Shown here: positions 5,249 to 48,718 of the stretch, piece after piece
Numbering within the stretch: the stretch's first letter is position 1
Layout: the number at the start of each line of letters is the position of its first letter
Source: Acidobacteriota bacterium
GTDB lineage: Bacteria > Acidobacteriota > Terriglobia > Bryobacterales > Bryobacteraceae
DNA: 64,000 nucleotides
Direction: 5' to 3'
NCBI GenBank assembly: GCA_016213775.1
Contig: JACQZR010000022.1
Location: forward strand, 1-64,000
Made by a program: the position numbers and the translations under genes
Notes under the pieces: model-generated
Seen by the model: the letters and a program-made list of their open reading frames with translations, nothing else
Databases searched by the model: none
Told to the model about the DNA's origin: nothing

Positions 5249-7497
5249 TTGTTCCCTTTCACAGCCTCCACGCCTCGCAGGAGGACTTCATCGCGCCCTT
5301 CGGCGATGCCGCGGCGAGTGCGCCGTTGCAGCACGGTCGGCTTCACGCCGATACCGTGGAACTGCCCGCCATCGGTGCGCAGCACTTGCATGCCGGTCCA
5401 GGAGATGCGAAACCCACCAGGTAAGGTAAACGGATTGATATTGCCGTTTGTGCCTGCGGTGGTCTCTCCAACGATCTCCGCGAGTTTGTGAAACTCCACA
5501 ATACCGAGGTCTGTCTCGGCCTGGCTGATGGCGCGTCCATCGGTGAGGAACGCTTTCTTCGCGGTCAAGTAGGGCCGTGCCGGGGTGAGTGTCCATCCCA
5601 TGTCGAGGAATGACATTTCCTTCTGATCGGGGAGCGATGGAACGGGCACGCGGAACATACCGCTGCGCAGCGGTTCCTGGCTGAGGTTGACAAGGAAGGT
5701 TGGGGCAATCAGGTTGGGGTAGCCGCGCATATCGAGGACGATTCCCGAGGCGCGCTCCAGGCGGGCGGCAGAGGCGAACCATTCGGCAGTGGTGACACGG
5801 CTCAGATCCACATAGACGATTCCGGGTTCGAGGTCAGCAATCTTGTCCGGCCGCGTTTCACTCCAGTCGGCATCGTTGGCCCGGCAGTTGAATTGGATTG
5901 TACGCCGTGTACCTAATGCGGCGTAAGGCTCGATTTCCAACTGCATCCGGCGTGAGGCGCCGCACTCGGCGATTTCGAGAACACTTCGCCAGCGGATCCA
6001 TTGGGGCGTCGCTCCGGATTGCAGCGCGTCTGTTTCCGTCAGAAGCGCGTTGATCTCCTTGCCATCGATGGATAGAATGCGGTCGCCACGCTGTATGTTC
6101 TGGCCCTGCGCTTCCTTGATGCGAGTGATAATCAGTTGCCCCTCGGCCCAAGCCCATACCACAGGCACGCCGTAATAAGCCGGCTTGGGATAGATTACGG
6201 TGCCATGGCCATCCTGCATGGCCGCCACCAGCCGTCGCATGGTAAGCGCGAAATCGGTCGTGCCTTCGTTCTCCGCTGCGCTTTGCAGTGCCTGCCGCAG
6301 TACGGCCGGCATATCGACCTTGACGGTGTCGAAGTATGGGTAGAAGTGCTGGAAGATATTCCAGGTGATGATCACGTTGGTGAAACGCGTGGCGCGGTCA
6401 GTAACGTCGCGCAGCCAGTAGTCGGTGGAGTCCGTGGCGGGTCGCTTCGGCAGCGTACCGTTGCCATCCGCGTACAACGACACCGGCACGCGCGCCGTCA
6501 GTCCTCCGCCGATCTGCGCTTCGTAGGGGGCGGCTGGGTCGAGGAATCCACCGGGAAGGCTATCCCCATCGACCGCGGCGAATTCCCGTTTACTCTCGTA
6601 GGGATTGCTTTCCAGCCTGACTCCGGAGTGGACCCAGCGCACGATGCGCACGCCGGTACCCTCGGGCCGCTTCCATGCTTCGGGCGGCTCCGGATTGTCC
6701 CCGTCCGGGAATAGCTGGATAGCCGGGGCGATCGGATCAAAGAGCAGTTGCAGCCGTTCCGCCAGTTCCGCTGGCGAGGCGGCGTCCTCCACTTTGCGAG
6801 TTCCATCGATGAGGAACGTGTTCCAATCGATGGTGGCCGCCTGATCGCTGGGGTGGAAATAGCGGACATAGCCCGCGAGGCGTGCGAAGGCCGCCAGATT
6901 CTCGAGTCCGGATTCCGAGAGAGGCCTTGGCGCCTCGGCGGGATCACTGCGGACGGTTCCTGTGATCTCGAGGGTGACATCGTCAAACCAGACCTTTCCG
7001 CCAGACGGGAGGAATAGACCGAACACAATGGTCTGCGTGTCTGACCCGGCAATGCCGTCGATCGTGTAGTAGTTCCAGGTATTGGAGGTTATGGGACGAT
7101 TCTGCATGTTGTCGAAGAAGCTATATCCCCCGCCTATCTTGTCCACTCGAAGCCACATCTGTGCGCGCGCATTGGTTCCTTCGACTCGCACGGCGCCCTT
7201 GTAGCGAATTCGCTTGTTGACGTATGCGGCTCCAGGACGGCTCGAGCTGAGGATCCCGAGGGAGTTGGGAGCAGGCGTGGCCGGTGCCGTCACTACAACG
7301 CACTGTTTTCCCTGATGGCAGCCTTCGGTGGTGAGGACCCCGGTAAATCCTGGACCTCCGGAGGAGACAAAGCTCCAGGAAGGAGGCACGGACCCCGGAT
7401 TGCCGGTTTCGAAATCGCCGTTGGGCGGACGGGATTGCCCGAGGGCGGTTGCGGCGATTAGGAGCGCGGCCAGTGAAAGTACAAGACGCTGACGCAT
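5245..7497 (-). CDS. exported S41-family peptidase
   Basis: The product has 750 residues. A signal peptide (MRQRLVLSLAALLIAATALG) is followed by an N-terminal beta-sandwich of the carbohydrate-binding/galactose-binding type (about 25-185, GGKVWFDDVTLEITG at its end). Next come a helical S41 N-terminal region (FARLAGYVRYFHPSDQA), a PDZ-like region (QGQNIQRGDRILSIDGKEI) and the S41 catalytic fold (IVLDMRGYPN, then DGRAISQAE with the likely nucleophile Ser near 657, then VGETTAGTNG). S41 enzymes cleave C-terminal or unstructured tails of proteins in the periplasm. It is coupled by ATGA overlap to the S41-FGE gene. The 230 bp upstream should hold the promoter. Confidence 0.9.
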   Translation of the reverse strand: MRQRLVLSLAALLIAATALGQSRPPNGDFETGNPGSVPPSWSFVSSGGPGFTGVLTTEGCHQGKQCVVVTAPATPAPNSLGILSSSRPGAAYVNKRIRYKGAVRVEGTNARAQMWLRVDKIGGGYSFFDNMQNRPITSNTWNYYTIDGIAGSDTQTIVFGLFLPSGGKVWFDDVTLEITGTVRSDPAEAPRPLSESGLENLAAFARLAGYVRYFHPSDQAATIDWNTFLIDGTRKVEDAASPAELAERLQLLFDPIAPAIQLFPDGDNPEPPEAWKRPEGTGVRIVRWVHSGVRLESNPYESKREFAAVDGDSLPGGFLDPAAPYEAQIGGGLTARVPVSLYADGNGTLPKRPATDSTDYWLRDVTDRATRFTNVIITWNIFQHFYPYFDTVKVDMPAVLRQALQSAAENEGTTDFALTMRRLVAAMQDGHGTVIYPKPAYYGVPVVWAWAEGQLIITRIKEAQGQNIQRGDRILSIDGKEINALLTETDALQSGATPQWIRWRSVLEIAECGASRRMQLEIEPYAALGTRRTIQFNCRANDADWSETRPDKIADLEPGIVYVDLSRVTTAEWFASAARLERASGIVLDMRGYPNLIAPTFLVNLSQEPLRSGMFRVPVPSLPDQKEMSFLDMGWTLTPARPYLTAKKAFLTDGRAISQAETDLGIVEFHKLAEIVGETTAGTNGNINPFTLPGGFRISWTGMQVLRTDGGQFHGIGVKPTVLQRRTRRGIAEGRDEVLLRGVEAVKGNK

Positions 7498-7726
7498 GAT
7501 AAGCCCTTTCTTTTTCTACAGATTCCGATAGCCGTGACAATGCCAGGCATCAACTCAACAAGCGACAATCCAGGAGAAAAGAGGACACACAATCGCTAAT
7601 CTTGCGAGCTGGCCCGGCTGGGCTGCGGTTCGGCTGTCTGCCGCTGGACTTTGACGCGCTCCATCAGGGGAGCGCGGAACGTCTCAGCCCCAGAACGCGA
7701 AGCCATTCTATCTGCGCCGACCGCGG

Positions 7727-10700
7727 CTAGTACAACTCCGCACTAATGCCAGATGCGACACTGTCGAAGCCCCCAGCAATCAGCACTGTCCCATTTCCCA
7801 ACAGAGTAGCCGTAGAGAAATAGCGCTTCGTCGACATATTCCCGGCTGCTGAGAAGAGCCCGGTTGAAGGATCATACAACTCGGCACTGGATCGAAACTC
7901 ACCGCCGAATCCCGCGACAATCAGAACCTTCCCATTGCTGAGTTTGGTCGCAGTGTGCGTATCGCGGGGCACCGTCATGCTGCCTGTTGGCGAGAAAGTT
8001 CCGCTGGCAGGATCGTACAGTTGCGCGGCTGCGGTATACGGCTGTCCTCCCGCGATGAGGACCTTGCCGCTATTCAACAGTGTGCCAGACGCATAATGCC
8101 AAGCGTAACTCATACTGCCCGTCGGAGAAAAGGTTCCTGTTGCCGGGTCGTATAGCTCTGCTGTCGCCAGGATGGTTCCATTCTGCCCGCCCGCAATCAG
8201 GACCTTACCGTTCATCAGCAATACGGCTGCCGGCGCTCCGCGGCCGGCAGACATTGTTCCAGTCAGCGTGAATGTGTTCGTGGCAGGATCGAATAACTCT
8301 GCCGTCGCGGGGTACCCGAATCCGAGGCCACCTGCGACCAGGACCTTTCCTGTGCCCAGCAATGTCAAAGTGTGACTGAAGCGCGGAAACGACATATCGG
8401 CAACTCGAGTGAATAGCCCGGTAGCCGGGTCGTACAGTTCCGCAATCGCCGTCGCGCCGGGATTACGGCCACCCGCTATCAGAACCTTGCCGTTGGCGAG
8501 TAGCGTAGCCCGATGTTCATAGCGTCCGATGCTCATGCTTCCGGTCGGCGTGAAAAGACCCGTCGTCGGATCGTACAACTCGGCAGTCGTCAAATACTGT
8601 TCGGGCGCGCCCATCCCTCCGGCAAGCAGGACTTTTCCGTTGTTGAGGAGCGTCGCGGTGTGGCAGTAGCGAGCGGTGCCGAGCATCCCGGTGGCAATAA
8701 AGCCCGGCGAGCGCACCGCGAGCATCGCGGAACCAGTAACCGTTCCGGCACTGGCGGAAACCGTCGCAGCTCCGCTTGCCGCCGCCGCGGCCATTCCGCT
8801 GTTACTCTCGTCATTGCTCACAGTCGCAACAGCCGGCCAGGAGGAACTCCACGACACTGATGTCAGTATCCGCGTGCTGTTGTCGGCGAACCGCCCAGTG
8901 GCAACAAATTGCTGCGCCGCAGTCGGCGAGATGGTGGCAGTGGCTGGGGTCACGGTGATGGAAACCAAACCTGCAGGTGCCAGTGTCTCTGGCTCAAACA
9001 GCTCTGCGCTTGGTATGAAGTATCCGGCATCGTAGCCGCCCGTCAGCAACAGGCGCCCGCTCGGCAACAGTGTTGCACGGTGAACCCAGCGCGCGGCTCG
9101 CATGTTGCCGATGCTGCTGAAACTCCGGCTGACAGGATCGTAGATCTCGGCACCGGCGATTGGTGTACCACCCCCAAGTTGGTTGTAGCCGCCGGCTATC
9201 AGAATCATCCCATTGCTCAGCAAAGTGGATGTGTGAACTACGCGCGTGTCCAGCATATCCCCCACAGCGGTGAATATCCCCGTCGCGGGGTCGTATAGTT
9301 CCGCGCTGCGCAAACGTACTCCACTCACGGTTCCCATGTAGCTCCCCCCGGACAGCAGCACTTTGCCGTCATTGAGCAACGTGGCAGCATGGGAACCGCG
9401 CACCGCCACCATGCTTCCCGTGGCGCTGAATGATTCCGTCAGTGGGTCGAAGACTTCCGCCACAGTCGGAGAACCGGCGTACACCTGGTTCCCCGCGATC
9501 AACACCCGGCCGTCGGCAAGCAGGGTGGCTGTATGTCCTGTCCGCTCGAACAGCATGCTGCCGCAAAGATGGAATGTTCGACCTACGGGATCGTACACCT
9601 CGGCGGTTCCGGGAGATCCGTAGCCTCCCGTGGCGAGCACCTTGCCGCTCTTCAGCACGGTTAAAGTTGGTCCAATGCGGTAAGTCGACATGCTCCCCAC
9701 CGCCGTGAACGAGCCCGTTGTTGGATCGTAGATTTCAGCCGTTGCAGTCGCCCCTCCTACTACCAGCACGGTGCCGTCGTTCATGAGCACTGCCTGGTGC
9801 TGGTAGCGCCCGATCATCATTGACCCGGTAGGCGTAAACAGTCCTGTTGCCGGGTCGTATAGCTCGGTGCTCGCCGAGTAGCCGGCAGTGGTTGATATCA
9901 TGCCTCCCGCAATTAGCACCTTTCCATTGTTCAGCAATGTGGCCGTGTGCCCTGAACGTCCGGTATTCATGGTCCCGGTGAACGTGAACGCCACTTTCAC
10001 CGTCAACGTCGTTTGGCCGGCGACCGGTCCCGATGCCGCGGAGATGGTAGTCATGCCCGATCCCTGTCCGCTAAACCGGCCGTATCCATGGTTCCCGGCG
10101 ACCCCTGGCGCGGAACTACTCCACATGGCTGAGTTCGTCAGGTTCTGGGTCGTCCCATCCGTGTAGCTGCCGGTCGCGGTGAACTGCTTTGTCTGGCCAA
10201 ACCAAATCGTCGGGTCGGCTGGTGTCACCTGAATGGTTGTCAAAGCGTATCCAAAGCCACTCAGCGATACCACCTGAGGACTGTTGCCCGCGCTGTTGCT
10301 GATCGTTACGCTCCCAATCCGGTTCCCGGGCGCCGTGGGGGTGAAGTACACGTTGATGACACAACTCGCTCCGCTGGCGAGACTGGCGGGACAATTATTG
10401 GTCTGCTGAAAATCGCCGGTGGTGCCGACGGCAATGTTGTTCACGTTTCCGTTCCCGGTGTTGGTCATAGTCACCGATTTGGCGGCGCTTTCCGTACCGG
10501 CCAACTGCCGGTCAAAAGTCAGACTTCCAGGCGAAACCGTCACTGGCGGCGCGACGCCGTTTCCGGTCAGGCTGAGCACTTGTGGGCTATTTGTCGCGGC
10601 GTCCGTAATAGTCACGGCTCCTGTTCGCGCACCCGTCGCCGCCGGAGAAAACCGGACACTGATCGTGCAACTGCCGCCTGCGGCCAGGCTCACGCCGCAG

Positions 10701-41354: not shown

Positions 41355-41809
41355 TATGCTTTCCCTCCCGCTGCGGTTTTGATGGCTTTGCGGATGCGCT
41401 GGTAGGTGCCGCATCGACAGATGTTGCCGGACATGGCCTGATCGATGTCGGCGTCGGTGGGTTTCGGTTTCTTCTTGAGCAAAGATGCGGCCTGCATGAT
41501 CTGGCCGGGCTGGCAGTAGCCGCACTGAGGGACGTTGATCTGTTTCCAAGCGGTCTGGAGCGGATGGTCGCCCCTGGGGGAGAGCCCTTCGATTGTGGTG
41601 ATCTCCTTACCGGCGGCGCTCTTCATTGGGGTGACGCAACTGCGGGCGGCTTCGCCGTTGATGAGGACGGTGCAGGAGCCACAGATGCCCATGCCGCAAC
41701 TGAACTTGGTTCCGGTGAGTTCGAGCAGGTCGTGGATGTACCAGAGCAACGGCATTTCGGGGTCGCCATCGAACTGGCGGCCGGCGCCGTTCACCTTGAG
41801 TTGAATCAT
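41354..41809 (-). CDS. [2Fe-2S] subunit of the molybdenum hydroxylase (IorA-like)
   Basis: The product has 151 residues with all eight cluster cysteines: CGMGICGSC then C (SCVTP), and CGYCQPGQ with CRCG near the C-terminus. AGGAG precedes the ATG at 41809 with a 6-bp spacer. It passes electrons from the molybdopterin subunit. It has no own signal and should be exported as a hitch-hiker with the Tat-dependent partner. It is the first gene of the operon; its promoter must lie in 41810-41901, which also holds the left repeat of the terminase cassette. Confidence 0.95.
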
Positions 41810-41846
41810 GGAGGTCTCCTCGGTGGATGGAATTTTCTGATTGTAG

Positions 41847-41886
41847 CCTAATGGCCGGTGGTGAACACAGATGAACAGTGATAAGG
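41847..41886. repeat. left boundary repeat: CCTAATGGCC plus three 10-bp units
   Basis: CCTAATGGCC (41847-41856) is followed by GGTGGTGAAC, ACAGATGAAC and AGTGATAAGG. The same layout occurs at 44341-44380. The unit resembles the CACAGATGAA-type 10-bp repeat seen scattered in many bacterial genomes (from memory). Confidence 0.8.
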
Positions 41887-41901
41887 CAGGAAGACGGACT
41901 T

Positions 41902-42522
41902 TCATTTCTGCTCCTTGTGGAGGCGGTGGATCTTGTTTGCCTGCCAAACGGCCAGGCTGACGGCGATTGCCAGGTCGTCGTGCGGGGCTGTGCTGTGGCC
42001 TGCGAGGTCCAGGGCCGTGATCTCGTTGATGGCTTCCTGTGCGGATGGGAGCTTCGGATTTATCGTCAGTGACCTTGTTTGAAACAGTGTCGCGAGGTTG
42101 TTTAGCAGAATCGTTCTCGATACGTAGTGGAAGCCGCTGGATTCGGTTGGCGTTCCAGAGGCGGTGATGACCAGTTTCACGAGCGACGCTTCGACGGAGT
42201 TCGCGGTGAAGAAATCGAGGAACGGAAGGCCGGGGCCAGTGGCATCGACGACCAGCGTGGGTCGCGATTGGAACTCCGAGTTGCGGAGGGTGGCGCGCAC
42301 GATGTTGGCGATGGCCGGATAACTGGAGCCGAGCGGGATGCGTGTGAGGTGGCGGACCCGCAACACGGCGTGGTAACGGTTCTGATAGGTAGCGTGGTCG
42401 CGGCCGGTGGGACGCGGGTAGTACTGGACGATGGCGATGGCTGCGGGGTCGGAGCGCTGGCCGAGGTCGAGGCCGATGTAGAAGCGCGAGTCGAGCACCG
42501 GGGATGTCGAGGGTAAGAACAT
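41902..42522 (-). CDS. terminase large subunit, nuclease domain
   Basis: The product has 206 residues. The RNase H-like nuclease of large terminases is visible: [18 protein letters not shown] (first acid), [15 protein letters not shown] (second acid) and [13 protein letters not shown] (third acid). It is in the same reading frame as the ATPase gene, separated by TGA-AAC-ATC before its ATG. Relatives carry ATPase and nuclease on one chain, so either the gene was split by a stop codon or the halves are made separately by restart. Confidence 0.85.
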
Positions 42523-42528
42523 GATGTT

Positions 42529-43299
42529 TCAATTGCTCCATTCGGGAATGTCGAGGTCGTAGCAGGCTTCGATGTCGCTGACCGGTATCAGCGAGTTCTG
42601 AGACGAGTGGAAGGCGCAGAGGTATTCCTGCTCGTAGAGGTGAAGCGGCAGGCGGGCGCGCTCCTGTGCGAGGAAATCGGGCTTGATGCGCGGGCAAGCG
42701 GTGGCGGGGACAGACAAGCGGAAGAAGCCGTTGTCATGGTTCATCCATTCGTCGTGGAAGAAGCCGTGTTTGCCATTAGGGGTGGAGAGGAGCCAGAGTC
42801 GGCCATTGGGGCAAGCGGCGAGCATGGGCAGGATGTCGAAGTAAAGTGAATCGGGCACGCGCGCCGCTTCGTCGATGATGATGAGGGAAGGTGCAGAGAA
42901 GCCGCGAATCTTGTCGCCGTTGTTGGGGAGCGCGACGATGCGCGCACGGTTGGGCAGCAACAGGGACGCGCGGTTGAGACCGTCGCCGCGGCGGCTGGAC
43001 CCGAGCCTGGCGAGGAAGAAGGCACACTTGTGGAGAAGTAGCCCGGACTGGCGCGCGGACGGCGATGCGATGAGGATGAGTGCATCGGGCTGTCGAACGG
43101 CGTGATAGACGGCCATGGCGGCAACGGTAGTGGACTTGCCCCACTGGCGCGAACAACAGAGAATGCCGCGGGTGTGAGGGGCGGTGAGCACACTGGCTTG
43201 TTGGGAGTCAGGGGAAAAGCCGAGTGCTTCGATGGCGAATTCAACCGGGCCGGCGGGGAAGCCGGACGGTATCACGTCGCCCCCCCAAGTGTCGATCAT
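42529..43299 (-). CDS. terminase large subunit, ATPase domain
   Basis: The product has 256 residues. Walker A is [15 protein letters not shown], Walker B is [12 protein letters not shown], and the coupling motif is [18 protein letters not shown], all characteristic of phage packaging terminases. AAGGGGAG lies 6 bp before ATG 43299, which overlaps the stop of the 107-residue gene as ATGA. It ends at a TGA (42531-42529) after DLDIPEWSN, exactly at the ATPase-nuclease hinge. Confidence 0.9.
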
Positions 43300-43619
43300 A
43301 CAAATCTCCCCTTCCAACCTATTTCCTGTAAGGGTTTGAGGAAATGACAGTTGGCATTGTAAATGATATCGCGGACCATGGCTGCTATTTCGGAATATGG
43401 TTCTAAGATGCGGCGGAGTTGCAGGGCGAAGTCATTCCAGACCGTGAAATGGAGTTCGTGCACTTCGCGCGCGGCTGCGTGTATTTCCCTTTTCGCAGCG
43501 GGTTTTTCCGAGCGGCGCGCCGGCGCGGGCTCATACGGCGGCGCATCGGGCAGACGATGATAGCGCGCCGGGAAGACATCCGCGAGATTGACTAACTGGG
43601 ACCAGAAATCGAATGGCAT
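43296..43619 (-). CDS. cassette protein of unknown function, 107 aa
   Basis: I do not recognise the family. The product begins with a hydrophobic-aromatic stretch (MPFDFWSQLVNLADVFPARY), has a Pro/Ala/Lys-rich middle and a helical C-terminus (FALQLRRILEPYSEIAAMV). It lies four bases after the 189-residue gene and overlaps the terminase start, so it belongs to the cassette. In phages this position often holds a small terminase or adaptor; no DNA-binding motif is visible. Confidence 0.7.
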   Translation of the reverse strand: MPFDFWSQLVNLADVFPARYHRLPDAPPYEPAPARRSEKPAAKREIHAAAREVHELHFTVWNDFALQLRRILEPYSEIAAMVRDIIYNANCHFLKPLQEIGWKGRFV

Positions 43620-43623
43620 GGAA

Positions 43624-44193
43624 TTATCGATGCTCCTTAGTGCCCGGCGCGGTGTTATCGATTTCCGATTCCGACTTGGATGTTATTGGAGCCACTGGAG
43701 ATAAGCCGGATGTTGGTGTTTCGGAAAAATCATCTTGCAAGCGACGGGCGCGCATGTCGGTGAAGTTGGAGTAAGTCCTGGTATATTGCCGGTTGAGGCG
43801 GTTGATGTGCAGATCCAAGCGATGATGCGCCGGGGTATTATCTTCGAGGGAACGGTAGGCAATGGCCCAGATAGCGGGGCGGTCCAAGGACTTGTAAGTG
43901 GAGGCAATGTCTTTGGCGCAGTTATCGGCCTCGAGACCGAGGAGGGCCTCCTGCATGGCTCCGGCGCGGAGGATCTGCCACTGGAGGGTGGCCATCTGGC
44001 GGACGAGTAACTGCTCGACGTGGCCAAGCGGCGAGAAGGTTTCAACGAAGGCTGCCAGGTGATTATTGAATTCGTCCTGCGAGTCGGCGGGCAGGAGATA
44101 ATGAGATGCCGCGTGGGCCACGGATCGCTTGTTTGCCTGAGCGATGTTCCAACGGGCCTGCATGGCTTTTCTATTTTGTTCGGTCGGCTTCAT
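43624..44193 (-). CDS. cassette protein of unknown function, 189 aa
   Basis: This is the first gene of the cassette. The product is largely helical and charged (MKPTEQNRKAMQARWNIAQA, EQLLVRQMATLQWQILRAGA, HHRLDLHINRLNRQYTRTY) with a disordered Ser/Thr-rich C-terminus. AGGGAA stands upstream of the ATG. The basic N-terminus and helical body could suit a small terminase-like DNA-recognition partner, but this is inference; I do not recognise the family. Confidence 0.75.
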   Translation of the reverse strand: MKPTEQNRKAMQARWNIAQANKRSVAHAASHYLLPADSQDEFNNHLAAFVETFSPLGHVEQLLVRQMATLQWQILRAGAMQEALLGLEADNCAKDIASTYKSLDRPAIWAIAYRSLEDNTPAHHRLDLHINRLNRQYTRTYSNFTDMRARRLQDDFSETPTSGLSPVAPITSKSESEIDNTAPGTKEHR

Positions 44194-44340
44194 ATACGAG
44201 TTCCCTGATTTGGTTCTAGCAGGCCTCTCGAATGGACTTGATCAACTGCTAAGGTGGCGGTGTCTCTATGATGTTGATTTTGTTTGCGATAGCGATTTTC
44301 AAAATATTTGATTCGGGTTGTGACTGATAAAGTTCACTGA

Positions 44341-44380
44341 CCTAATGGCCACCGATGGACACCGATGAAAACCGATTAAA
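44341..44380. repeat. right boundary repeat: CCTAATGGCC plus three 10-bp units
   Basis: CCTAATGGCC (44341-44350) is followed by ACCGATGGAC, ACCGATGAAA and ACCGATTAAA. Orientation matches the left repeat. It lies about 150 bp upstream of the first cassette gene. Confidence 0.8.
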
Positions 44381-44447
44381 GAGGCTTTGACAAACACGCT
44401 CCAATGGAGGTCCGGATGTATCGCGCAGCGGTTTAGTTCACTGTGTT

Positions 44448-44780
44448 ATGGACTTCAAGGAGTTCATTCGGATCTCGGGCATGACGCACGTCAGAACTTC
44501 GCCGTACTATCCCCAATCGAACGGAAAGATCGAACGTTGGCACAAATCGCTCAAAGGAGAGTGCATCCGGCCGGGAACGCCGCTATCGCTGGAAGATGCC
44601 CGGCGTCTGGTGGAGGGCTACGTGGCGCATTACAACAGCGTCCGATTGAACAGCGCCATCGGCTACATCACGCCGAAGGACATGCTCGCCGGGCGTCAGC
44701 AGGAGATCCATGCCGAGCGGGATCGGAAGTTGGAGCAGGCGCGGAAACAGCGCCAGGTTCGCCGGCAGAACTCCGCTTGA
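44448..44780 (+). pseudogene. IS3-family transposase, C-terminal fragment
   Basis: The 110 codons cover the end of the DDE integrase core: FKEFIRISGMTHVRTSPYYP then QSNGKIERWHKSLKGECIRP with the catalytic glutamate, and HYNSVRLNSAIGYITPKDML. The N-terminal half with the two aspartates and the OrfA gene are missing. The break lies about 50 bp beyond the terminase-cassette repeat, so the insertion sequence was truncated there. Confidence 0.9.
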
Positions 44781-47626: not shown

Positions 47627-47762
47627 TCGGGTTTGGTCTCCAATATCCTATCACTTGCCCGCGCTCCCAACCGGTTTCGCGTGAGGGAATGTGTCACGGC
47701 GCATCCGGACAGAACACTGCATTATTGCATCATCGGTTGGCGGTCGAGGAGGCCGCTACGCG

Positions 47763-48718
47763 ATGGCAAGAAGACATCCATCAAGAAAAGCGCGGGCGGT
47801 TCCGAAGACTGTCTTGCGCCTGCCAGATCTCGACCAAGCGAAGCTGGCTGTTTTGAACAGCTTGAGTTCTCACGACGCACAGCGTGGTTACCGCCACGCT
47901 ATCGATGAGTTCATTGAATGGTATTGCTCAGAGCCGAGACTATCCTTCAGCAAGACTGTCGTTCTCCGGTATCGCATGCACCTGGAATCCCGGAAGCTCG
48001 CACCCGGAACAGTCAACCTGCGCCTCGGGGGCCGTGCGGCGTCTCGCCTATGAAGCCTCCGATTGCGGTCTCCTGAGCCCTGATCTGGCCGCCGGGATTC
48101 GGCGGGTGAAAGGCGTTCAAGAAACTCGGTGTGCGCTTGGGCAACTGGTTAACAGCCGAACAGGGTGAGAAGCTCTGGCAATCTCCTGATGTTGAGCGAC
48201 TGAAGGGCAAGCGTGACCGTGCGCTGCTGGCTGTATTGCTCGCCTGCGGCTTGCGGAGGCACGAAGCTGTTGAGTTGAACTTCTCTCACCTTCAGCAACG
48301 TGAACAACACTGGGCCATTGTCGATCTCGTTGGGAAGGCCGGTCACACGCGGACTGTGCCGGTGCCGGACTGGGTCAAGCAGGTTCTTGATGACTGGCTG
48401 AATGCAGCAGGTCTCACCTCAGGCAGGGTGTTTCGTCGCGTGAACAGGGCTGGAAGAATTTGGGGTGACGGCATGACTGAAAAAGTCGTCTGGCACATCG
48501 TCCGCGAATACGCAAAGCAAGTCGGGATCGAAAAATTGGCACCGCATGATTTGCGTCGAACTTGCGCGAGGCTTTGCCACACTGCCGGAGGCGAACTGGA
48601 GCAGATCCAGTTCCTTCTCGGTCACGTCTCGATCCAAACCACCGAGCGATACCTCGGATGCAAGCAGCGCATCCGATCGGCGGTCAACGACAGAATCGGA
48701 ATTGAGCCGAAGAGCTGA
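47763..48718 (+). pseudogene. tyrosine recombinase/integrase broken by two frameshifts
   Basis: The N-terminal SAM-like part (LDQAKLAVLNSLSSHDAQRG to LAPGTVNLRLG) breaks in a G5 run near 48027, continues one frame over as AVRRLAYEASDCGLLSPDLA, and breaks again near 48120 before LGVRLGNWLTAEQGEKLW. The catalytic C-terminal part is intact from 48131: CGLRRHEAVELN (Arg), APHDLRRTCARLCHTAG (HxxR), LLGHVS and the tyrosine in TTERYLGC. The fragment alone lacks the core-binding domain. It lies between the two kinases and marks past integration. Confidence 0.85.

Follow-up and report, generated by a model that had tools for sequence, protein, structure and literature searches.

What use has a bacterium for a terminase, the motor that fills virus capsids, when no capsid gene stands beside it? 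The question is raised by a small cassette at positions 41,847 to 44,380 of a stretch of 64,000 nucleotides, here called the window, from an Acidobacteriota bacterium of the family Bryobacteraceae (assembly GCA_016213775.1, contig JACQZR010000022.1). A sequence-only reading of this DNA had proposed a new kind of mobile element, or a terminase recruited for another job, with repeat-marked ends. The stand-alone, multi-copy and selected character of the cassette stood up to analysis, and the repeat-marked ends did not. The answer that we favour, with slightly less than even confidence, is that the cassette is one of many copies of a small Bryobacterales element without a capsid, which consists of a partner protein, p189, and a terminase large subunit (TerL), split in the window, and which would copy itself to new places.

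The cassette, its terminase and its partner gene

The features of the locus are listed below; gene calls are those of a simple open reading frame scorer, not of a trained gene finder.

43624-44193, minus strand: p189, an all-helical protein of 189 aa; terminase partner gene and candidate for a small-terminase (TerS)-like protein (gene call, family hidden Markov model)
43296-43619, minus strand: p107, a protein of 107 aa (gene call), seen among 52 loci only in this genome (C257, C292, C26)
42529-43317, minus strand: ATPase part of TerL (RQWGKST, IIIDEAA), with a TTG start and an in-frame ATG at 43299
41902-42522, minus strand: RNase H-fold nuclease part of TerL (GLDLG, VDATG, HDD)
41912-44309: DNA similarity (91.7%) to a second copy, C292, in the same genome
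44320-44326, minus strand: CAGTCAC, a member of a (C/A)C(A/G)GTCAC-like motif (read by eye)
44341-44376, plus strand: array of 10-bp units upstream of p189, member of a dispersed family
41847-41882, plus strand: degenerate array of 10-bp units about 20 bp past the nuclease stop, member of the dispersed family

The genes follow one another on the minus strand in the order p189, p107, ATPase and nuclease, with gaps of 4, -22 and 6 bp. Both terminase domains are present: the ATPase matches PF03237 in Pfam (1.2e-9) and phrog_7579 in PHROG (2.9e-43), and the nuclease matches phrog_27743 (8e-25). Neither p189 nor p107 has a match in Pfam or NCBIfam, and their PHROG matches all have E >0.2. Among 27 proteins encoded in window 27-61 kb, no portal, head, tail or lysis family of PHROG was found; integrase and transposase families were matched in this set (14 PHROG families in all). 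The sequence-only reading was therefore right about the four overlapping or near-touching genes, the two proteins of no known family, the two terminase domains and the missing portal, capsid, tail and lysis genes. An Rfam scan of window 40-50 kb gave no match. Inspection by eye, without statistics, showed the (C/A)C(A/G)GTCAC-like motif 5' of p189 at many of the loci looked at. Nearby, a tyrosine integrase is split into two open reading frames (47691-48053 and 48131-48718), about 3.5 kb from the cassette, and a C-terminal remnant of an rve-type transposase lies directly past the right array (44448-44780); relatives of this remnant at 84-91% identity are present in the genome and the genus.

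A search with the window ATPase (E ≤1e-10) through 151 genomes, this one and 150 relatives, placed the terminase in 37 of them, at up to 13 places each. A collection of named genomes gave 159 encoding places, of which 80 were kept; by title these are Acidobacteriota, mostly Bryobacterales, the exceptions being a record from Verrucomicrobiales and another from Nevskia soli. An initial map of 52 loci contained the ATPase at 49, the nuclease at 44, p189 at 37 and p107 at 3, all of the last in this genome, so that the supposed four-gene set is really a pair, p189 and terminase. In the 80 named loci, p189 was present in 36 and the nuclease in 76. Many loci end at contig ends, and the bacterial sets L063-L102 and L122-L201 overlap, 18 ATPase sequences standing under two ids. 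TerL is fused (about 440-540 aa) at some loci and split at others. p189 mostly lies upstream, in the same direction or divergent, and behind the terminase at a few loci.

The surroundings of these genes are not those of a phage. Around 47 loci, TerL was encoded at 43 and p189 at 33, and the next commonest family at 5, which bears out the earlier proposal of a stand-alone set; the set recurs, free of capsid genes, in many Acidobacteriota genomes. The 125 immediate cassette neighbours included no head or tail family among the matches listed (25 of 41 PHROG families), and no recombinase family recurred among the families listed for the 80 bacterial loci. At locus L146, a recombinase-like protein (named by eye) belongs to a family found in 8 viral loci. 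In the 62 viral loci from IMG/VR (L202-L263), 53 protein families occurred in at least 3 loci, and only two of these were found in bacterial loci (2/80 and 1/80). Nine of ten sampled viral families matched PHROGs: portal (3), major head or head protease (3), head-tail adaptor (1), tail (1) and protease (1). The split of TerL into ATPase and nuclease is common in these viral contigs too, sometimes with other genes between the parts. The Salinibacter ruber plasmid pSR14 (NZ_CP030359.1, 14.9 kb; L333) encodes a terminase-family protein at 6614-8040; the genes after it are for a hypothetical protein of 209 aa, a primase-helicase and ParA, and no capsid gene is annotated on the plasmid.

TerL retains the residues expected of a working enzyme. 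In an alignment of 13 fused TerLs (A2), the Walker A and B residues (R102, G105-K106-S107-T108, D194-E195) and the nuclease residues (D333, D408, H505-D506-D507) are invariant. The nuclease part matches the solved TerL structures 5m1f and 5tge, and a fused-TerL profile matches gp17 structures at 4e-23. Among phage records, that of Thermus phage Riverbug matches the window ATPase best (41%); the window nuclease had no tblastn match in phage records. In an ATPase-domain tree of 97 rows, the 45 bacterial rows (40 of the 80 named loci and five own copies) grouped with viral contigs L217 and L234, on a long branch, at 98% in the Shimodaira–Hasegawa-like approximate likelihood-ratio test (SH-aLRT). 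Holding the 45 stand-alone TerLs together improved the tree by 16.3 log units over the free search (P of the approximately unbiased test, 0.69); since the constrained tree is better than the free one, a single origin is not rejected. The sampled stand-alone terminases fit one clade beside the split-terminase phages, with the copies of the window's own genome scattered over several places of the tree.

The cassette genes are under purifying selection. Eleven comparisons of copy pairs gave ratios of nonsynonymous to synonymous substitution rates (dN/dS) of 0.09-0.30, as suits either a new mobile element or a recruited terminase. For the window genes the ratio was 0.26 in p189 (against the C292 copy), 0.15 in p107, 0.16 in the ATPase and 0.09 in the nuclease.

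The partner gene accompanies the terminase closely. The p189 profile (E ≤1e-6) matches 83 of the 151 genomes, with up to at least 19 matches per genome. It is present in all 37 terminase genomes, against 46 of the 114 others (Fisher, 2.5e-12), and within the family code in 37/37 against 37/54 (Fisher, 5e-5); because relatedness makes the genomes non-independent, both P values are too low, to an unknown degree. p189 may be a TerS-like protein. Its model has a predicted local distance difference test score (pLDDT) of 88. The PHROG family phrog_9231, 'terminase small subunit', was matched by 2 of 26 p189 members (best 2.8e-5). The model of a p189 member from L156 aligned with HK97 TerS at Z 6.8 and a root-mean-square deviation of 3.4 over 92 aligned positions, tied with other helical matches, and HK97 TerS was not among the 50 matches listed for the window p189 model. 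Comparison of the L156 model with the Protein Data Bank and viral models gave nothing at E ≤0.001; Z scores of a second look reached 7.4 for L156 and 7.8 for the window p189, within the chance range for helical proteins. No p189-like protein was found in phage records at E 0.01, and plasmids gave two partial matches. A relationship between p189 and a 175-aa protein whose family occurs in 18 viral loci was considered and dropped, profile comparison showing no relation. p189-type genes without a terminase match (L309-L322 and L326; G002, G060, G062, G063, G073 and others) form a high-copy orphan family that reaches at least 19 per genome; in G002 several of them sit at contig ends.

Copies, ends and adjoining arrays

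That the cassette was copied as a unit is well supported. A second full copy lies on contig C292, with 91.7% identity over 2399 bp. The ATPase search matched this genome at 10 places, and fragments of the nuclease end or of p189/p107 occur at C306, C159, C32, C97, C238 and C26. The copies fall into four families: A (C257, C292), B (C278, C208, C197, C154, C306, C159, C32, C97; 77-93%), C (C301, C238; 88%) and D (C223, C65, C231; 87-92%). Within the genome, paralogues are alike across the cassette and their flanks are unrelated. Nine copies (C278, C208, C223, C231, C65, C154, C306, C159 and C32) are cut by a contig end; repeated DNA often breaks assemblies at such places.

On the p189 side, similarity in families B and C begins at AAACTAYANNAGTAG. 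With at most one mismatch this motif has 4 matches in the 11-Mb genome, all of them cassette borders (C238, C278, C301, C197), against 22 for the reversed pattern. On the terminase side, similarity ends close to the terminase stop codon; C197, C306, C159 and C32 share the end ..AAAGCTATGA and then continue into differing DNA. No inverted repeats of at least 14 nt pair the ends of window 41700-44600. At C197, the host gene nadE ends 8 bp from the cassette. Ten relatives, among the matches listed, carry nadE with no cassette behind it; the gene that follows overlaps nadE by 4 bp in 8 of these relatives and lacks a counterpart among the genes of the C197 locus, so the site is not a clean empty one. 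The comparison with empty sites that had been suggested from the sequence gave sites without the cassette, none of them clean. Insertion at start codons was also considered, from a stop overlapping ATG in C306, C159 and C32. It was given up, since ATGA stands at no more than 11 of the 106 terminase ends listed and the downstream starts are perhaps longest-reading-frame artefacts.

The border repeats of the window are real and in direct orientation, as had been claimed. The two 36-nt stretches are 75% identical and form the longest direct repeat reported in 41700-44600; the right array is clear, with 3.2 units and a Tandem Repeats Finder (TRF) score of 43, and the left one is degenerate and not reported by TRF. 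The exact sequence CCTAATGGCC occurs in the window only at the two border sites, and with one mismatch it is unremarkable (7 found against 3.15 expected). As a specific attachment-site pair the repeats were rejected, being no more alike than other members of their family: the border pair scores 40 against a mean of 42.6 for comparisons with 19 other arrays of the genome, and 24 of 38 such comparisons score as high. The border arrays of C292 are alike (125 columns, 78%; 1 of 38 comparisons with other arrays as high), but five local arrays are likewise. Same-orientation arrays at both ends were seen, among the examined loci, in just two cases: the window copy and the paralogue closest to it.

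These arrays belong to a dispersed family. The three-unit pattern has 35 matches in the window's own genome, where its reversed control has none (1 in all 151 genomes), and arrays of the form CACnGATGAACnCnGATGAAC, often preceded by ATGGCC, occur in 45 of the 151 genomes. Their presence goes with that of PF13366 (GxxExxY) genes (38/45, odds ratio 18.5, 1e-12) more closely than with the terminase (22/45, odds ratio 5.8, 2e-5). Among array genomes of the family code, 13 of 35 have no terminase, two of the 13 also being without p189, and, with up to 2 mismatches allowed, 15 of the 37 terminase genomes lack arrays. Arrays are nonetheless enriched at cassettes: for the 33 loci in array-bearing genomes, 0.32 arrays would be expected within 500 bp, and 8 were found, at 7 of the loci (about 25-fold; Poisson, 2e-9). 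Upstream of p189, 10 arrays were found at 9 of 79 distinct genes, compared with 18 of 1099 control genes having an array within 700 bp upstream (Fisher, 3e-5). Taken in the direction of p189, they read TTCATC without exception (sign test 0.004; leaving out one of L103 and L104, paralogues that share an array, 0.008). The nearest array lies 64-199 bp from p189, and a second array at L198 lies at 587; the array of C208 (L013), with 5 mismatches, was left out of the count. Downstream of the nuclease, arrays occur at 5 loci, 2 in the orientation of those upstream of p189 and 3 opposite. Family B has members with an array (C208) and without one (C278, C197), an indication that the array lies outside the element proper. 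The enrichment and the constant orientation 5' of p189 suggest that the arrays are a favoured neighbour or target of the cassette and not its ends. The earlier claim that CCTAATGGCC plus 10-bp units marks the ends is not supported, the family being dispersed through many cassette-less genomes and missing from most cassette loci. Two observations had been named in advance as speaking against the sequence-only reading. One of them, repeats lying off the borders of conservation, was made, so half of that test went against it; the other, a locus with the genes inside a full prophage, was not seen.

Several further observations concern the arrays themselves. They often stand beside GxxExxY genes (L009 8003-8457, 10787-11052 and 15731-15889, and in many genomes), which may be the true owners of the repeats. 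Near cassettes, GxxExxY genes were found in 4 of 131 locus entries, which makes the link between the two an occasional one. Inverted array pairs 42-55 bp apart, start to start, resemble doublets of repetitive extragenic palindromic (REP) sequences in G004 (C143, C207, C236, C247, C265) and G048 (C110, C196, C275, C278, C28). Contig C292 (L009 5460-15757, L108 2280-2326) holds five same-orientation arrays within 11 kb, which separate the terminase cassette, GxxExxY copies, a 632-aa gene and a 1373-aa gene (TIR-like by eye) and give the contig the look of a string of gene cassettes.

Proposed mechanism and rival explanations

In phages, the cos or pac site that the small terminase recognises lies next to the gene for that protein. 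By this likeness p189 is predicted to recognise the 5' end of the element or the adjoining array. TerL would then use ATP to cut and move DNA from the point that p189 has marked, and the cassette would thereby be copied to new places, preferring sites beside arrays. The cut DNA might be inserted directly, or be spread in a borrowed phage capsid and taken up by recombination; as copies multiply inside single genomes, direct self-mobilisation is ranked first. Somewhat more tentatively, we propose a mobile element of a new class whose sole enzyme is a phage-type terminase, with a TerS-like protein that would mark the 5' end or the array and a TerL that would either insert the DNA itself or feed it into a borrowed capsid. 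If this is true, stand-alone terminases kept by selection in chromosomes would be motors that move genes within and between genomes without a transposase or integrase, and a compact two-protein system, open to testing, would be at hand.

A number of results weigh against such self-copying. To our knowledge, no TerL re-joins DNA. The partner protein often occurs alone, and even G002, a genome that yielded no TerL, has it, so it has no need of TerL nearby; its link to TerS consists of a weak match for 2 of 26 members and a fold match that is not decisive. Of the 33 cassette loci in array-bearing genomes, 26 lack an array within 2 kb (up to 2 mismatches allowed), and the AAACTAYANNAGTAG motif is missing from the window copy (family A) and from C208. 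The neighbouring gene of the relatives is absent from the C197 locus, not just shifted within it; at the window site, five relatives carry iorA without the cassette in the stretch compared, and their upstream genes differ between species. Precise excision, target duplication or a clean empty site was obtained at neither of these two sites. There are no near-identical copies (dS at least 0.18 in the own-genome pairs tested), so copy divergence does not support recent movement, though assembly breaks could hide copies of that kind.

The self-copying element has to be set against four other explanations. An unlikely one, though it deserves attention, is a packaging parasite or minimal satellite, in which a TerS-like protein would mark a pac-like site beside its own gene, TerL would fill capsids of a co-resident phage with chromosomal DNA from the cassette onwards, and entry would proceed by homologous recombination with copies or arrays, no integrase being needed. 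In its favour are a terminase pair kept under selection without a capsid, the position of the arrays, where present, 64-199 bp 5' of p189 in one orientation, and the lack of a recurring recombinase among the families listed beside cassettes. In phages such as lambda, cos and pac sites hold such a position relative to terS. Arrays are, however, missing at most cassettes and present in genomes without TerL (13 of the 35 array genomes of the family), and packaging alone leaves multiplication inside one genome unexplained; no helper phage was identified, and none was sought. We regard as improbable a domesticated DNA-processing or defence module that benefits its host and has spread by ordinary horizontal transfer. 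Purifying selection agrees with it, as do L140 (11463-16005), L164 (11715-18109) and L185 (2283-10372), where the terminase is directly followed by an effector operon resembling type III CRISPR, and, by similarity, a Cas6-like family in L171 (11555-12166); the proteins are Cas6-, Cas10- and RAMP-like, most of the matches lying under NCBIfam cut-offs. Up to 13 places per genome in scattered positions are nevertheless unlike a host function, six cassette proteins had no PADLOC match, and the CRISPR link is seen at about 4 of the 80 loci. PADLOC matches of the 125 neighbours were mostly to single-member families, Cas6 reaching 3, among the matches listed (25 of 79 families).

The two remaining explanations have still less in their favour. 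That the arrays are the mobile unit, as GxxExxY-linked REP-like repeats that move the genes between them with the terminase as passive cargo, appears quite improbable: arrays do follow GxxExxY more than the terminase (odds ratios 18.5 and 5.8), and the five same-orientation arrays of C292 separate several gene blocks, yet families B and C have multiplied although most of their observed ends lack an array, and terminase genomes without an array are not rare (15/37). The cassette is unlikely to be a prophage remnant, and we give very little credence to decayed prophages that keep a terminase by chance. TerL is of phage origin, and related split TerLs are found on viral contigs, among which portal and head genes are recurrent. 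Against this, the same two genes are found at dozens of loci where no other phage gene recurs, a single clade is not rejected, the active sites are conserved and dN/dS is low.

Comparison with known systems

In the open-access literature, which most subscription papers and preprints lie beyond, we found no description of stand-alone terminase elements. According to the available part of an acidobacterial genome survey (PMC5900883), a terminase gene sufficed to call a predicted prophage active. Were the self-copying element real, terminase matches in prophage surveys would need another reading.

Among known systems, phages, phage satellites, insertion sequences and REPIN/RAYT are each set apart from the cassette by a defining feature. 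The TerL of tailed phages (T4 gp17, Thermus phage TerL, split-TerL phages) shares with that of the cassette the ATPase, the RNase H nuclease and the conservation of their catalytic residues. Unlike these phages, the cassette has no portal, head or tail gene, its p189 partner occurs in 0 of 80 viral loci, and its TerL forms a separate group in the tree, but for two viral rows on a long branch. Some phage satellites (SaPI/PICI, cf-PICI, PLE) carry terminase genes, and they use foreign capsids. The cassette differs from them in its size of about 2.4 kb, its many copies per genome and the lack of a linked integrase, the tyrosine integrase of the window (47691-48718) being split.

ISPpu9 is an insertion sequence that targets REP sequences, as given in the available part of PMC8450116. 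Like elements of this type, the cassette is short, occurs in several copies with unrelated flanks and can stand beside members of a dispersed repeat family (PMC8450116, same part); unlike them, it has no known transposase family (Pfam, four proteins) and no end-pairing inverted repeats of at least 14 nt. The REPIN/RAYT systems are set apart by their Y1 HUH transposase domain, which Pfam did not find in the cassette proteins, and here the repeats persist without the terminase. With these systems, so far as the available part of PMC3116915 describes them, our case shares dispersed short repeats that are tied to a gene and, in some genomes, inverted pairs of arrays.

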